The translations under genes and the position numbers were made by a program. The notes beneath the pieces are model-generated. The model was given only the letters and a program-made list of their open reading frames with translations. It made no database searches and was not told the DNA's origin. 64,000 nucleotides of DNA from Lutibacter sp. A80 (GTDB lineage Bacteria > Bacteroidota > Bacteroidia > Flavobacteriales > Flavobacteriaceae). The stretch covers positions 2,214,501 through 2,278,500 of the forward strand of contig NZ_CP092480.1 of NCBI RefSeq assembly GCF_022429645.1, in the 5' to 3' direction. Each line of letters opens with the position of its first letter. Positions within the stretch are counted from its first letter, which is position 1. This document shows positions 51,857 to 56,623 of this stretch, piece after piece.

Positions 51857-52243
51857 TTATTTTTTGGCTTTTAAACACTCTTTACAAACTCCTGTTAAAA
51901 TACAATTTACATTTTCAACTAAATAACCTTCAGGAATAGAAAAATTAATTTCAACATTCAAACATTCTATTCCTTTACATTTTACACAATTGAAATGCAA
52001 ATGTTGATTTTCTAAAGTTTTTTTATCAGATTTTTTAGTTAAAGCAAAATACTGTTTACCATCCTCTGCAACAATTTTATGTATAACTCCATCGTCACAA
52101 AATCGATTTAAAACTCTATAAATAGTTGCTCTATTAATTGCAATATCTATTTCCTTCTCAATTGAATCTTGACTCAAGGCTTTACCTGACTTAGATAAAA
52201 CAGCCAAAACAGCTTCTTTTGTAGGTGTATTTCTTCTCTTCAT
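51857..52243 (-). CDS. Fur-family regulator, probably Zur-like
   Basis: The 128-residue repressor has a winged helix (about 5-65, RATIYRVLNRF) and a dimerisation domain with the regulatory HLHF motif (H81, H83). The structural zinc cysteines are C86, C89, C120 and C123. Fur-family members sense Fe, Zn, Mn or peroxide; the divergent zinc-type locus favours Zur. It is transcribed away from that locus, with a shared control region of about 130 bases. Confidence 0.88.
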   Translation of the reverse strand: MKRRNTPTKEAVLAVLSKSGKALSQDSIEKEIDIAINRATIYRVLNRFCDDGVIHKIVAEDGKQYFALTKKSDKKTLENQHLHFNCVKCKGIECLNVEINFSIPEGYLVENVNCILTGVCKECLKAKK

Positions 52244-52250
52244 TGGTTAA

Positions 52251-52265
52251 TGCAATTAATTCGCA
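52251..52265. promoter_or_regulatory. Candidate Fur-family 7-1-7 box upstream of the regulator
   Basis: TGCAATT-A-ATTCGCA is a partial palindrome (5 of 7 pairs) 8 bases upstream of the regulator ATG. Its position suits autoregulation. Weak on sequence alone. Confidence 0.3.
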
Positions 52266-52295
52266 ATAAACTACAGCAATATTATAAAAAAATAA

Positions 52296-52303
52296 TACAT
52301 TTG
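52296..52303 (+). promoter_or_regulatory. Promoter-like -7 element with overlapping dyad
   Basis: TACATTTG matches TAnnTTTG. A second TACATTTG occurs at 52328-52335. The first overlaps the dyad TATTAT/ATAATA (52280-52297), a possible operator for the divergent Fur-family protein. Confidence 0.4.
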
Positions 52304-52374
52304 CAAAATATATAAACACAATAGTATTACATTTGTTGCGTTTTTTTAATAAAGTAAGACAGGTTTCATTCTTA

Positions 52375-52680
52375 ATGAGAGCAAATTTAAAAAATAGTAT
52401 TACATATCTATTCTTAGTTCTTTTTATTTCAATAAAAATGACCGGGATTCATGCGTTGTTACACAACGACGATGATGAGCATGCTTTACACTGTGTTATT
52501 TGCGAAAATGCGATTACACATAATTTAACACCTGCAATTACACCAGATTCAGAAGATTTTACAATTGAAAATATTGAATTTGTTACTCCTAAAAACTTAA
52601 TTAAACACTATAGTTTTATTAGTTTAACTACAATTGAATCTAATCAGTTATTTTCGCGGCCTCCGCCTTCATTACTTTAA
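52375..52680 (+). CDS. Small His/Cys-rich secreted or membrane protein (DUF2946-like layout)
   Basis: The ATG at 52375 gives 101 residues; an upstream TTG at 52333 overlaps a promoter-like element. A hydrophobic segment (about 9-24) is followed by clustered ligands H26, H30, H36, H39, C40, C43 and H49 around an acidic NDDDEH. The C-terminus reads FSRPPPSLL. The layout recalls small metal-associated DUF2946-type proteins found beside TonB-dependent receptors. No enzymatic role is indicated. Confidence 0.7.
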   Translation: MRANLKNSITYLFLVLFISIKMTGIHALLHNDDDEHALHCVICENAITHNLTPAITPDSEDFTIENIEFVTPKNLIKHYSFISLTTIESNQLFSRPPPSLL

Positions 52681-52868
52681 TTACCGTTATACATCAATTT
52701 AAAATTTTAACTTTTTAAATTCTTAGGCTATTTATTTAATTGCCTAAAAAATAATTTATGTAAGCAATTTTAAAACAATAGACTAAACACAAGCATTAAT
52801 TTATTGTTGAATACTACTTAAAAAGTTAATTAAAATAAATTCATGTATAGATTTATTGATGTTTTTTT

Positions 52869-52883
52869 CAATAATAATTATCA
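52869..52883 (+). promoter_or_regulatory. Fur/Zur-type box upstream of the metal receptor
   Basis: CAATAAT-A-ATTATCA matches the 7-1-7 motif TGATAAT-N-ATTATCA at 12 of the 14 arm positions. It lies 19 bases upstream of the receptor ATG. AT-rich context makes chance matches possible, but the position is ideal. Confidence 0.45.
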
Positions 52884-52902
52884 AATCATTTAGTATTAAA
52901 TT

Positions 52903-55272
52903 ATGCTTCAAAAAACACTTAGTATATTGCTATGTTTTAGCTTATACACTTTAACATTTGCCCAAAACACTTTTCAAATAAAAGGATTTGTGGCAGATGC
53001 AAACAGCTTACAACCTATAGAAGGTGCTAATATTATTAGCAATAATTTATATGCTATTACGTCTTCAGAAGGAGTATTTACAATAAAAAACATAGCTAAA
53101 AAAACCTATACATTTACAGTATCGTGCATAGGTTATAAGTCTAAAACATTTACAGTAAATGCAACACCAAAAATGGAAGCTATCACGGTTTATTTAACCG
53201 AATCTGCAACCGAGCTTAACGAAATTGAAGTTCAAGGAAAAACTAAAAAAAGAGAGCTCCAAGAATCTCCTACAGTTTCATACGTAGTTTCTGAAGAGTT
53301 TCTTAATAAAAATAGAGAAAATAGCCTTATGCAAACTCTAAGTAAAATTCCTGGAGTAAGCACTATAAGTATCGGTTCTGGCCAATCTAAACCTGTAATT
53401 AGAGGTTTAGGATTTAATAGAGTAGTGGTTGTTCAAAACGGTATAAAGCACGAAGCACAACAATGGGGAAGTGATCACGGCTTAGAAATAGATCAATATG
53501 GAATTGAAAATATTCAAATTATTAAAGGTGCAGCATCTCTACTTTATGGCTCCGATGCAATTGCTGGTGTTGTAGACATTCAACCTACAAAAACACCTCT
53601 TAAAAATTCTTTTAACGGAGAAGTAAATCTTTTAGGAGAAAGCAATAATGATTTATTAGGTATTTCTGCAGGTATTCAATCACGAAAAGATTCTTGGTTT
53701 TATCGTGGAAGACTAACTTATAGAGATTATGGAGATTATAAAGTTCCAACCGATAAAATTAATTATGAAAACTATATTTTTGAACTTGATGATAATAATT
53801 TAAGAAATACAGCCGGAAAAGAAGCAAATGCAAGCTTTAGTATTGGTTATATTTCTGACAATATAAAATCTGAAACCTTTTTAAGTAATGTAAATGCTAA
53901 AAACGGTTTCTTTGCTAATGCCCATGGACTTGAAGTTAGATCATCTACCATAGATTATGACAGTTCTAATAGAGATATTGATTATCCTTATCATACGGTT
54001 AATCATTTTAAAGTTACCAACAACACCTCTATAATTCTAAACAACCACACGCTTCATTTAGATTTAGGTTTTCAGAACAATCACAGAGAAGAACATTCAG
54101 AACCATCAGCACATGGATATATGCCAAAACCAACGAATACTAAAGAACGTGAATTTGATAAAAACACCTATGCTTTAAACATTAGAGATGCCTTTAGTCC
54201 AAATAATCAACACGATATTGTTGCAGGTATAAATGTAGAATTTCAAAACAACAACATTGGAGGCTGGGGATTTTTAATTCCAAAATACAACCGCTTTACA
54301 ATTGGAGCATTTGCTTATGACCAATTTGAAATTAATTCTAATTTACATTTTCTAGCAGGTATCCGTTACGATTATGGAGTACTTAACACCAAATCGTATT
54401 TCGATTGGTATCAGTCTAAAGTAGATAATAGTGACGGTTCTACATCAAATGTATACCTACAAAGAGCGCAAAATAAAACCTTAGATTTTGGTAATATTAG
54501 TGCTTCAATGGGCTTAAGTTATTTACAGAACAATACCACTTATAAAATAAATGTAGGTAAGAGTTTTAGAATGCCTTTATCTAATGAATTAGCTTCAGAT
54601 GGTGTTAACTACCATATGTATCGTTTTGAAAAAGGAAATCTAAATTTAGACCCTGAAGAATCGTACCAACTAGACATAGATATTGACCATACAACCGAAT
54701 TATTTAGTATTGGAGTAAGTCCTTTTGTAAACTTTTTTGAAAACTATATTTACTTAAACCCTACTTCAAACTATTATGAAACCCTTCAAATTTATGAATA
54801 CACACAAAGTAAAGTATTTAGAATGGGAGGAGAATTTAGAGCTAGTTCAACAATAACTAAAAATTTACAATTAAATCTGTCTGCAGAATACGTGTATTCT
54901 AATCAAACTAATGGAGCTAAAGAAGGTTTTACACTTCCTTTTTCACCTCCATTATCAGGTCTATTTACAATAAATTATCAACTTAAAGACTTTTATTTTT
55001 TAAACAAACCTCAGTTAAGTGCTAGTTATAAAATTGCAGCATCTCAAAGTGAAATTGTACCACCAGAAGAAAAAACAGATGGTTATCAAGTACTAAATAT
55101 GTCTTTAGTTACAGAAATGGACCTTATAAAAAACAATGCACCTGTAGCAATGCGTATAAAATTAAACAATGTATTTAATACTAAATATTTTGATCATACC
55201 AGCTTTTACCGTTTAATAGACGTACCAGAAGCAGGTAGAAATTTATCAATATCATTAACAATACCTTTTTAA
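52903..55272 (+). CDS. ZnuD-like TonB-dependent metal receptor
   Basis: The 789-residue receptor has a signal peptide (ending FAQ), a carboxypeptidase-regulatory-like domain (about 25-105), a plug (about 125-235) and a barrel. The plug motifs GVSTISIGSGQSKPVIRGLG, WGSDHGLEID and KGAASLLYGSDAIAGVVDI match the ZnuD/zinc-type receptor group. His-rich stretches (HREEHSEPSAHGY; HTVNHF) lie in expected extracellular loops. It likely imports Zn or another divalent metal, energised by TonB. The two His-rich lipoproteins follow downstream. Confidence 0.86.
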   Translation: MLQKTLSILLCFSLYTLTFAQNTFQIKGFVADANSLQPIEGANIISNNLYAITSSEGVFTIKNIAKKTYTFTVSCIGYKSKTFTVNATPKMEAITVYLTESATELNEIEVQGKTKKRELQESPTVSYVVSEEFLNKNRENSLMQTLSKIPGVSTISIGSGQSKPVIRGLGFNRVVVVQNGIKHEAQQWGSDHGLEIDQYGIENIQIIKGAASLLYGSDAIAGVVDIQPTKTPLKNSFNGEVNLLGESNNDLLGISAGIQSRKDSWFYRGRLTYRDYGDYKVPTDKINYENYIFELDDNNLRNTAGKEANASFSIGYISDNIKSETFLSNVNAKNGFFANAHGLEVRSSTIDYDSSNRDIDYPYHTVNHFKVTNNTSIILNNHTLHLDLGFQNNHREEHSEPSAHGYMPKPTNTKEREFDKNTYALNIRDAFSPNNQHDIVAGINVEFQNNNIGGWGFLIPKYNRFTIGAFAYDQFEINSNLHFLAGIRYDYGVLNTKSYFDWYQSKVDNSDGSTSNVYLQRAQNKTLDFGNISASMGLSYLQNNTTYKINVGKSFRMPLSNELASDGVNYHMYRFEKGNLNLDPEESYQLDIDIDHTTELFSIGVSPFVNFFENYIYLNPTSNYYETLQIYEYTQSKVFRMGGEFRASSTITKNLQLNLSAEYVYSNQTNGAKEGFTLPFSPPLSGLFTINYQLKDFYFLNKPQLSASYKIAASQSEIVPPEEKTDGYQVLNMSLVTEMDLIKNNAPVAMRIKLNNVFNTKYFDHTSFYRLIDVPEAGRNLSISLTIPF

Positions 55273-55315
55273 ATAATAAAACAAACAATTAAAATTAAAA
55301 TTAAAAACAAATTTT

Positions 55316-56086
55316 ATGAAATCAAATTACAAATTAATAGCAATTTTTGCTTTTCTTGGACTCTTTTTACAATCTTGTGATGACGATGACGATCCAATAT
55401 TAAACGCACCAACAATTTCAAACTTTGAATATGGTGAAGGAAGTGAGCACTCAACAGACCAATTTGCTTTTAAAGGGTCTGACATTCATATTGAAGCTGA
55501 AATTAATGCAGATGCTTTAGTTAGTAGCATTACACTTGCTATACACACACACGATATAGAACCAGGTGAAAATGAAGTAGATTGGGATTTTGAACAAACA
55601 TTTACAGATACAAATTACCTAGTTTTAAACCCAACTTTTCACGAACATATTGATGTTCCAACAAACATTCCTTCTGGTGAATACCATGTTGAATTAATTG
55701 TTGTTGATGAACTAGGAAATAGCACAGAGGTTGAAGGATATATTCAAATAATAGATTATATTACTTTAAGTGAATTTTCTATAGATGAAACAGCTGCTAG
55801 AGGAGATGATTTTCACGCAGAATTTATGATAGATGCTGTTAACGGTATCCACAGTATTACTGTTGATGTACACGCACATGACATTACTGTTGGAGAAGGT
55901 GAAGTAGAATTTGATTATGAGGAAGAATTTTTAGGTGACTACCACGAACAAACTTCTGTAGAATTTCATGAGCATATTGATGTTCCTGCTACTGCACCTG
56001 TAGGTGAATACCATATTACTTTTACAGTTGAAGATGAAGATGGAAATACAAAAGAATATGAAACACATATAGATATTACCGAATAA
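55316..56086 (+). CDS. Two-domain DUF4625-like His-rich lipoprotein
   Basis: The 256-residue lipoprotein has a lipobox ending LQSC (C21) followed by DDDDD, an acidic start like the Bacteroidota surface-export signal. Two tandem modules (about 35-148 and 149-256) repeat the ligand layout: a single His (DIH or DFH), H-x-HDI, FHEHIDVP and GEYH. The even spacing suggests each module binds a metal ion, probably zinc. It starts 43 bases after the receptor and is likely cotranscribed. DUF4625 assignment is from the pattern. Confidence 0.82.
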   Translation: MKSNYKLIAIFAFLGLFLQSCDDDDDPILNAPTISNFEYGEGSEHSTDQFAFKGSDIHIEAEINADALVSSITLAIHTHDIEPGENEVDWDFEQTFTDTNYLVLNPTFHEHIDVPTNIPSGEYHVELIVVDELGNSTEVEGYIQIIDYITLSEFSIDETAARGDDFHAEFMIDAVNGIHSITVDVHAHDITVGEGEVEFDYEEEFLGDYHEQTSVEFHEHIDVPATAPVGEYHITFTVEDEDGNTKEYETHIDITE

Positions 56087-56143
56087 TAAAATAACTTTAC
56101 CGCATAGAATACACATATACTGTGCGGTTTTAAACTTTATAAA

Positions 56144-56623
56144 ATGAAATTTACACTAAAATATTTTTACTTTATAACCCTTTCCCTACTTATGTTATCT
56201 TGCTCTGATGACGATAGCGTTGATAAAGATGACCAAAAACCAACTATAAGCATCAATTATTCAGACGGTTTTCCTCAAGCTTGTGAGCAACTTGTAAAGG
56301 GACAAACTTATACTTTTAAAGCAAAAGTTACAGACAATAAAGCTTTAGCCTCTTATAGTTTAGATATCCATAATAATTTTGACCAACACACCCATGATGA
56401 TCAAGGAGAAGTATGTGATTTAGACCCTATAAAAGAAGCTATTAATCCTTTAATATTTATGGAAAACTATAGCATAGAAGGGGAATTAACTACCTATGAA
56501 ATAAATATTAGCATAACAATTCCAAATGATATAGATACTGGAGATTATCATTGCTCTTATTCTGTAACAGATACAACAGGTTGGCAAAGTAACACATCTA
56601 TTGATATTAAAATTATTGAATAA
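56144..56623 (+). CDS. Single-domain DUF4625-like lipoprotein
   Basis: The 159-residue lipoprotein (lipobox LMLSC, C20, then SDDD) has one DUF4625-like domain with ligand-rich DIHNNFDQHTHDDQGEVC and GDYHCSYSV. It is a shorter relative of the preceding gene, with different spacing and added Cys. It is third in the receptor-lipoprotein array, closed by a terminator. A surface metal-binding or metal-handing role is inferred from context. Confidence 0.8.
   Translation: MKFTLKYFYFITLSLLMLSCSDDDSVDKDDQKPTISINYSDGFPQACEQLVKGQTYTFKAKVTDNKALASYSLDIHNNFDQHTHDDQGEVCDLDPIKEAINPLIFMENYSIEGELTTYEINISITIPNDIDTGDYHCSYSVTDTTGWQSNTSIDIKIIE

Follow-up and report, generated by a model that had tools for sequence, protein, structure and literature searches.

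We describe here a five-gene locus at positions 51857 to 56623 of a 64,000-nucleotide stretch of the Lutibacter sp. A80 genome (assembly GCF_022429645.1, contig NZ_CP092480.1, positions 2,214,501 to 2,278,500; the whole stretch is called the window), and propose that it is probably an outer-membrane uptake operon for zinc starvation with two controls, a Zur-like repressor and a leader peptide that resembles CruR. The proposal is built on a small open reading frame (ORF) that stands between a divergent Fur-family gene and a TonB-dependent receptor gene, on the spacer that follows this ORF, on a palindromic box beside the Fur-family gene, and on neighbouring genes of zinc type. The features are as follows.

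51857 to 52243, minus strand: Fur-family gene (PF01475), divergent from the operon and Zur-like by context only.
52248 to 52268, no strand assigned: palindromic Fur-family box TAATGCAATTAATTCGCAATA, found with a motif trained without the window; its core also occurs upstream of the second-copy cluster described below.
52375 to 52680, plus strand: small ORF, the putative leader peptide, with HxxxH at 52450-52464, CxxC at 52492-52503, RPPP at 52657-52668 and the stop three residues on.
52681 to 52902, plus strand: 222-nucleotide (nt) spacer before the receptor gene, without a promoter consensus.
52853 to 52874, plus strand: short RNA hairpin (TTATTGA/TCAATAA, with covariation) that ends 28 nt ahead of the receptor start codon.
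52903 to 55272, plus strand: ZnuD-like TonB-dependent receptor with an N-terminal CarbopepD_reg_2 domain, from Pfam, NCBIfam and the closest solved chain.
55316 to 56086, plus strand: lipoprotein with two DUF4625 domains (PF15418), an acidic export-type start and conserved histidines.
56144 to 56623, plus strand: lipoprotein with one DUF4625 domain (PF15418) and conserved histidines and cysteines.

A preliminary description of this DNA, made from its letters, had placed a Fur-family gene divergent from a small ORF, a receptor gene and two lipoprotein genes, and all five genes are where it put them. A lack of conserved linkage in other genomes would, by its own account, have spoken against its reading, but the linkage proves to be conserved. 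Named genomes yielded 416 relatives of the final gene (56144-56623), and we analysed the best 80 loci, which carry about 30 genus names (e.g. Winogradskyella, Maribacter, Arenibacter, Zobellia, Formosa and Polaribacter) that we take to be nearly all Flavobacteriaceae and mostly marine. The array goes beyond chance, because the small ORF and the receptor gene adjoin directly on the same strand in 69 of these 80 loci; a DUF4625 gene comes directly after the receptor gene in 76 cases. The gap between small ORF and receptor gene is long (median 214 nt, range 114-432 nt, 69 loci); the gap from receptor to DUF4625 gene has a median of 27 nt (76 cases), and those between DUF4625 genes have medians of 52.5 nt where the two kinds differ (52 cases) and 55 nt where both carry the same label (27 cases). 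DUF4625 is present in 30 of 199 genomes sampled from the same family; a sample of 296 genomes from the phylum has small-ORF relatives in 22. One relative stretch (L039, 7314-13837) has two leader ORFs in a single cluster, one ahead of the DUF4625-type receptor genes and the other ahead of another receptor, which has a different lipoprotein.

The small ORF opens at a TTG at 52333, although the ATG at 52375 is the likelier start. In the window it heads the genes that diverge from the Fur-family gene, with the long gap before the TonB receptor behind it. The window protein has no Pfam or NCBIfam match up to an E value of 1. A hidden Markov model (HMM), trained on motif-bearing sequences so that loss of a motif would lower the score, recognises the family in 74 of the 80 loci, and a pattern scan adds two (L205 and L207); three further stretches (L183, L193 and L210), judged from coordinates, stop at a contig edge before the small-ORF position, and in L151 neither HMM nor pattern scan found a small ORF. 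All 74 ORFs keep HxxxH, then CxxC, then RPPP in that order. The distance from CxxC to RPPP is 51 residues in 71 of them, 52 in two and 50 in one. Every synonymous codon for arginine (six) and proline (four) is used within RPPP across the 74 ORFs, and therefore selection acts on the peptide. None of 309 other ORFs of 60-160 residues in the same stretches ends in an RPPP-type tail.

An ordinary exported metal-binding chaperone or adaptor, with RPPP serving as a structural or sorting element, could share some of these properties. The ORF is under purifying selection, with a ratio of nonsynonymous to synonymous substitution (dN/dS) of 0.10-0.17 in eight of 12 pairs (the remaining four give 0.33, 0.37, 0.47 and 0.68), and an N-terminal hydrophobic stretch, seen by eye in the alignments, accompanies the metal ligands. 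However, the distance between the motifs is fixed at 51 although mean conservation of the residues between them is 0.49 (71 sequences with that spacing), RPPP stands two or three residues ahead of the stop in 72 of 74 ORFs, the small ORF precedes genes that are not homologous to each other (receptor, COG0523 and ABC ATPase), and the long gap behind it lacks a promoter consensus. We therefore consider a chaperone unlikely and regard the small ORF as most likely an arrest or leader peptide of CruR type, not a structural part. Where the preliminary description saw a small His/Cys membrane protein, the small His/Cys ORF stands, but its conserved features are those of an arrest peptide.

The comparison with CruR (Bordetella pertussis BP2923, of the bfrG/crtA operon) is instructive in both directions. 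Papers are cited by PubMed Central accession. CruR is a DUF2946 protein in which CxxC is followed 45 residues on by RAPP, three residues before the end (PMC9426467); it heads a TonB-receptor operon across a 162-nt gap, and copper sensed through CxxC frees the arrest, after which Rho terminates transcription. Both systems have an exported-type small ORF ahead of a TonB-receptor gene, a CxxC motif, a Pro-Pro motif three residues ahead of the stop, a nearly fixed distance between the two motifs, and a long gap (162 nt in the CruR operon, 222 nt in the window). The window ORF differs in its extra HxxxH, in not being DUF2946 by Pfam, and in standing among zinc-type neighbours behind a Fur-family box, whereas the CruR promoter reportedly has no such box. 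Measured against the description of CruR-type peptides, it has the CxxC and the hydrophobic start, and lacks the C-terminal RAPP and the spacing of 45 residues, plus or minus one or two. DUF2946 is weakly matched by five of 30 small-ORF relatives (best E 0.0044), and a genome-scale DUF2946 scan of 22 genomes matched no small ORF. Because the anatomy is CruR-like but DUF2946 similarity stays below the cut-off, we suggest that the small ORF works like CruR, although it is not to be filed as DUF2946.

Other nascent-chain systems place the RPPP motif in context. CutF of Rhodobacter capsulatus and the CutF-like proteins are likewise nascent exported metal sensors with a Pro-rich C-terminus and a folded element ahead of the downstream gene, but in CutF copper switches expression on, the motif is CxxxC, and the stem-loop masks the ribosome site of the next gene, whereas the window hairpin lies about 170 nt beyond the end of the small ORF. 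Proteins like CutF occur commonly in Bacteroidota, and for some of them the metal may be a different one, such as nickel or cobalt (PMC9973294, the excerpt of which does not contain the word zinc). A genome survey that covered RAPP and RGPP places such leader ORFs ahead of TonB genes throughout Gram-negative bacteria (PMC12992588); RxPP sequences with proline at x are among the arrest sequences selected in that work, and RPPP was among the motifs searched in another (PMC10987492). We also find a divergent Bacteroidota class that ends in RAPP or RGPP, 44-45 residues from CxxC (five loci measured) and with gaps of 13-79 nt (four measurable loci); it includes more DUF4625-receptor loci as well as loci with a receptor and no DUF4625.

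The metal is suggested by the receptor and by the company the operon keeps. Pfam finds plug and barrel domains and CarbopepD_reg_2 in the receptor. Its highest NCBIfam score is with the haem/haemoglobin model TIGR01785 (145.3 bits, cut-off 316.85); the ZnuD model NF038289 gives 138.8 bits, a long way short of the 950 bits required, and the copper-receptor model TIGR01778 is weak at 77.8 bits. The closest solved chain is ZnuD (4rdr, E 6e-20), the next being at E 1.5e-8, and the earlier label of a ZnuD-like TonB-dependent receptor can be kept on this relative, though the protein is below cut-off in NCBIfam. Likeness to ZnuD, the zinc receptor of Neisseria, thus lies in the closest solved relative, a leading NCBIfam model and a zinc-type context, and the differences in the sub-cut-off score, the N-terminal carboxypeptidase-like domain, the lipoprotein partners and the leader peptide. 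Recurrent neighbours of the loci are MerC, GTP cyclohydrolase I (folE), two kinds of COG0523/CobW GTPase, alkaline phosphatase, and an ABC ATPase with an FtsX-type permease and a 145-residue protein of no family. MerC, folE or COG0523 occurs in 37 of 80 loci (21 if the second MerC type is left out) versus one of 23 control stretches, of which 20 were drawn at arbitrary positions from 17 genomes and three from the window; the corresponding counts are 39 of 80 versus none of 23 for a Fur-family gene, and 15 of 80 versus none of 23 for the permease and the 145-residue protein jointly. A MerC gene directly precedes the small ORF in 17 of 74 loci. The role in metal acquisition proposed from the letters is supported, and the neighbourhood suggests that the metal is better specified as zinc. 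Alkaline-phosphatase-type genes stand at or near the locus in L040, L049 and L053 (PF00245 was scanned for L049), and relatives of this type are present in five of the 80 named stretches.

The same leader mechanism could instead answer to copper, with the receptor importing that metal. The studied members considered here, CruR and CutF, respond to copper (PMC9426467 and PMC9973294), CxxC is a copper motif according to the CruR paper, and the receptor has its weak match to TIGR01778 and others to OprC chains. ZnuD, however, outscores copper in both comparisons (138.8 versus 77.8 bits for the models, E 6e-20 versus 3e-8 for the chains). HxxxH together with CxxC supplies two histidines and two cysteines, which is a usual zinc set. 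The neighbours are MerC, folE and COG0523, with no copper-family gene among the proteins scanned, and the survey (PMC12992588) reports that copper-related RAPP/RGPP leader ORFs are lacking in Bacteroidota. Copper is for these reasons an improbable ligand, and zinc remains the metal we favour.

The host genome holds a second small ORF outside the window (L105, 5112-10828), which also ends in RPPP and is 49% identical to the first. It lies between MerC and the only full-length COG0523 gene of the genome (two other PF02492 matches are weak, at 28.6 and 25.8 bits). Genes for an ABC ATPase and two ABC-2/DUF3526 permeases lie downstream, and two Fur-family boxes upstream of MerC. The genome encodes one ZIP-type protein and no ZnuA-type binding protein. 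A similar set of parts is seen in the Caulobacter Zur regulon (znuK, znuGHI and zrpX; PMC4176598), where TonB receptors are linked to a Fur-family zinc repressor, znuGHI, which Zur represses, encodes an ABC-2 ATPase plus two ABC-2 permeases, and a COG0523 protein is present. In contrast to the present system, no DUF4625 is seen in the excerpted text, and two DUF2946 genes that are lower in the zur mutant (one of them not reaching the cut-off used in that paper) head other clusters.

The spacer between the small ORF and the receptor gene behaves like a leader. The flavobacterial promoter consensus is TTG-N17-23-TAnnTTTG. None of 70 spacers contains its strict form (1.9 in shuffled sequences), but 23 of the 75 regions ahead of the small ORF do (1.7 in shuffles); the corresponding counts for a looser form are seven of 70 spacers (11.6 in shuffles) and 32 of 75 upstream regions (12.3 in shuffles). 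These counts bear on a reading in which a promoter within the spacer serves the receptor gene, and the small ORF stands alone with no control over it. Spacers of 114-432 nt do have room for a promoter, and a conserved TATAGGTTTTG block stands about 50-60 nt ahead of the receptor, but matches to the consensus exceed the shuffled counts only upstream of the small ORF and not in the spacers, and we give an independent small ORF little credence. A common transcript with the small ORF as its leader is the arrangement that we prefer.

Folding and covariation add to this picture. Mean folding z is -2.56 for the spacers, -0.24 for the regions upstream of the small ORF and -0.69 for coding sequence (60 loci each); other intergenic stretches give -1.60 (39), from which the spacers differ modestly (p 0.002, uncorrected for kinship). 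Mostly 27-30 nt ahead of the receptor start lies a hairpin with compensatory changes in a 4-bp core (43 sequences), in which covariation is 0.438 versus 0.261 in shuffled alignments (reached in none of 500) and 0.283 in the best slid version, with 77% of cells paired. RNAalifold, given the last 75 nt of the spacer, found no structure unaided, and an Rfam scan of the window returned nothing at gathering score and two chance-level microRNA matches near the leader. The hairpin (52853-52874 and its equivalent in relatives) is flanked in many genera by conserved TATAGGTTTTG and CAAATCTTATAGTAT blocks. An outer stem pairing TATAGGTTTTG with CAAATCTTATA found no support from covariation, since 450 of 500 shuffles gave values at least as high.

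The first layer of control would be the Fur-family gene at 51857-52243, which scores 40.6 bits with PF01475 (cut-off 23.1) and 17.6 bits with the NCBIfam Zur model NF008646 (cut-off 167); it is one of three Fur-family genes in the host genome. A motif search over 37 upstream stretches, in which that of the window was counted twice, returned the palindrome TAATGCAACtnaGTTGCATTA, to which about 60% of stretches contributed; once the duplicate is removed its log-likelihood is 170.9, and 12 shuffled sets reach no more than 44.1. A motif trained without the window ranks 52248-52268 first in the 64 kb, at 18.9 bits, the next site reaching 10.9. The core pattern has six sites in the genome and the reversed pattern has three; of the six, two precede the second-copy cluster, one is in the window and three are inside ORFs. 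A box is found at the start of 34 of 35 opposite-strand Fur-family genes versus 18 of 1600 random stretches, a count in which some motif-training genomes recur among the named loci. Of 18 loci in which both promoter and box are seen, 12 have the start of the box 40-46 nt ahead of the end of the -7 element, and the remaining six have it at offsets of -68, -67 (three loci), +8 and +10. In the window it sits between fur and the small ORF, nearer fur, and two TACATTTG elements are visible by eye at 52296-52303 and 52328-52335; the controlled gene could therefore be either. Finally, iron or haem uptake under an ordinary Fur is very unlikely, for although TIGR01785 is the top NCBIfam score of the receptor and the regulator has Fur proteins as its nearest solved chains, another and stronger Fur-family gene (87.4 bits) exists in the genome, the recurrent neighbours scanned are of zinc type with none of iron type, and the best solved relative of the receptor is ZnuD.

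The two lipoproteins had been described as DUF4625-like with acidic export-like starts, and both parts of this description hold. PF15418 (cut-off 27) scores 182.1 bits on the product of 55316-56086, as two domains, and 146.9 bits on that of 56144-56623. Their lipoboxes and acidic starts (LQSC-DDDDD and LSC-SDDDS) fit the Bacteroidetes surface-export signals SDDDD and SDDFE (PMC5080379), in that the lipobox cysteine of both is followed by polar and acidic residues as in a lipoprotein export signal (LES), which supports their assignment as predicted surface-type lipoproteins. H76, H82, H84, H136, C47 and C91 are invariant in the short lipoprotein (20 sequences), and H58, H109 and H111 in the long one (30 sequences), which has further near-invariant histidines in both domains. 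The short lipoprotein is predicted to be an Ig-like sandwich (mean predicted local distance difference test score, pLDDT, 87), and a fold search with it matched sandwiches of Ig-like, PKD, FnIII and similar types (best Z 9.6); the matches listed include no SusD-like or ZnuA-like fold, which excludes nothing. The arrangement is like that of the SusD and BtuG pairs, in which surface-type lipoproteins adjoin a TonB receptor in Bacteroidota, although DUF4625 is a small Ig-like sandwich and neither of those folds was among the matches listed, which again excludes nothing. Elsewhere in the host genome, outside the window, a 459-residue protein with DUF4625 (49.9 bits) is encoded at L064 8118-9497, in a cluster that recurs in L069.

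The observations can be assembled into a two-layered model. In the first layer, the Zur-like Fur-family repressor would bind zinc and act on the palindromic box. In the second, the C-terminal RPPP would slow or arrest the ribosome three codons before the stop; in low zinc the arrest would persist and the downstream genes would be made, whereas zinc captured by the nascent HxxxH-CxxC site, some 50 residues back, would pull the arrest free. A site about 50 residues back from the stall is near the exit of the ribosome tunnel. Once freed, expression might stop in the long structured spacer, perhaps via Rho by analogy with CruR. We infer zinc as the ligand, the arrest at RPPP, its release by zinc and the way in which expression is stopped. 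The His-rich DUF4625 lipoproteins would bind zinc at the cell surface and the ZnuD-like receptor carry it in, and we infer both their zinc binding and the hand-over to the receptor.

Several observations weigh against this model. The motif is RPPP where CruR has RAPP, and the spacing is 51 rather than 45 residues; DUF2946 fails as the family of the small ORF, the window protein having no match and not reaching the Pfam cut-off of 23.7 bits. RPPP is only partly arrest-permissive in the published Ala-to-Pro mutants of ApdA and ApdP, which retain arrest in part (PMC12992588), and most RAPP-like sequences of Escherichia coli and Bacillus subtilis that were tested did not stall efficiently (PMC10987492). 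The small ORF is not always first, since 27 of 74 loci have a same-strand ORF ending at most 100 nt before it, and the second copy in the host is also preceded by another same-strand ORF. The region upstream of the window small ORF matches neither the strict nor the loose promoter form, and intrinsic terminators are not in excess in the spacers (10 of 70 versus 9.7 expected). Only 31 of 74 loci have a box of at least 12 bits in the 400 nt ahead of the small ORF, and 43 of 80 loci have no MerC, folE or COG0523 in the stretch covered. The window Fur protein has a threonine (YFALT) where 11 of 12 aligned relatives have cysteine (YAKC or YALC); at a possible sensor position, this makes its metal uncertain, and the metal site may differ.

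A broader proposal follows, for and against which we see about equal chances: that the small ORF is an arrest peptide whose two-His, two-Cys site folds around zinc as it emerges from the ribosome, at a fixed 51 residues from RPPP, and thereby frees the stall, so that many Flavobacteriaceae sense zinc through the growing peptide in addition to a Zur-like repressor, both for outer-membrane uptake and, in the second copy of the host, for the COG0523 zinc chaperone. If so, a mechanism that the excerpted papers show only for copper would gain a zinc member, and such a form, with its own RPPP motif, fixed spacing and added histidine pair, would suggest that the metal-sensing leader mechanism is general and tuned to the metal. 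Metal-sensing leader peptides are known for copper in Proteobacteria, and an RPPP leader lies beyond the reach of a genome survey limited to RAPP and RGPP. Literature searches on arrest peptides, CruR, Zur, COG0523, zinc and TonB (titles and abstract openings) found no zinc leader peptide, and others in the library searched found no paper on DUF4625 and none combining a zinc uptake regulator, Flavobacteriaceae and a lipoprotein. The assertion that no characterised system has this composition is consistent with the search on DUF4625, but kinds of parts such as ZnuD, Zur, COG0523 and CruR are known. DUF4625 would gain a testable role in zinc capture, and a zinc-starvation regulon would be outlined for the Flavobacteriaceae.

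Leader ORFs of both classes also stand ahead of a different cluster, in L107 and L108 (ending in RPPP) and in L111 and L119 (ending in RAPP); in L107 this cluster comprises genes for an ABC ATPase, a TonB receptor and an ABC-2/DUF3526 permease, followed by one more ORF. In another family of the phylum (L124), an RAPP-ending leader ORF closely precedes a COG0523 gene with a short ORF between them, and the pairing of leader and COG0523 is therefore not confined to the Flavobacteriaceae.

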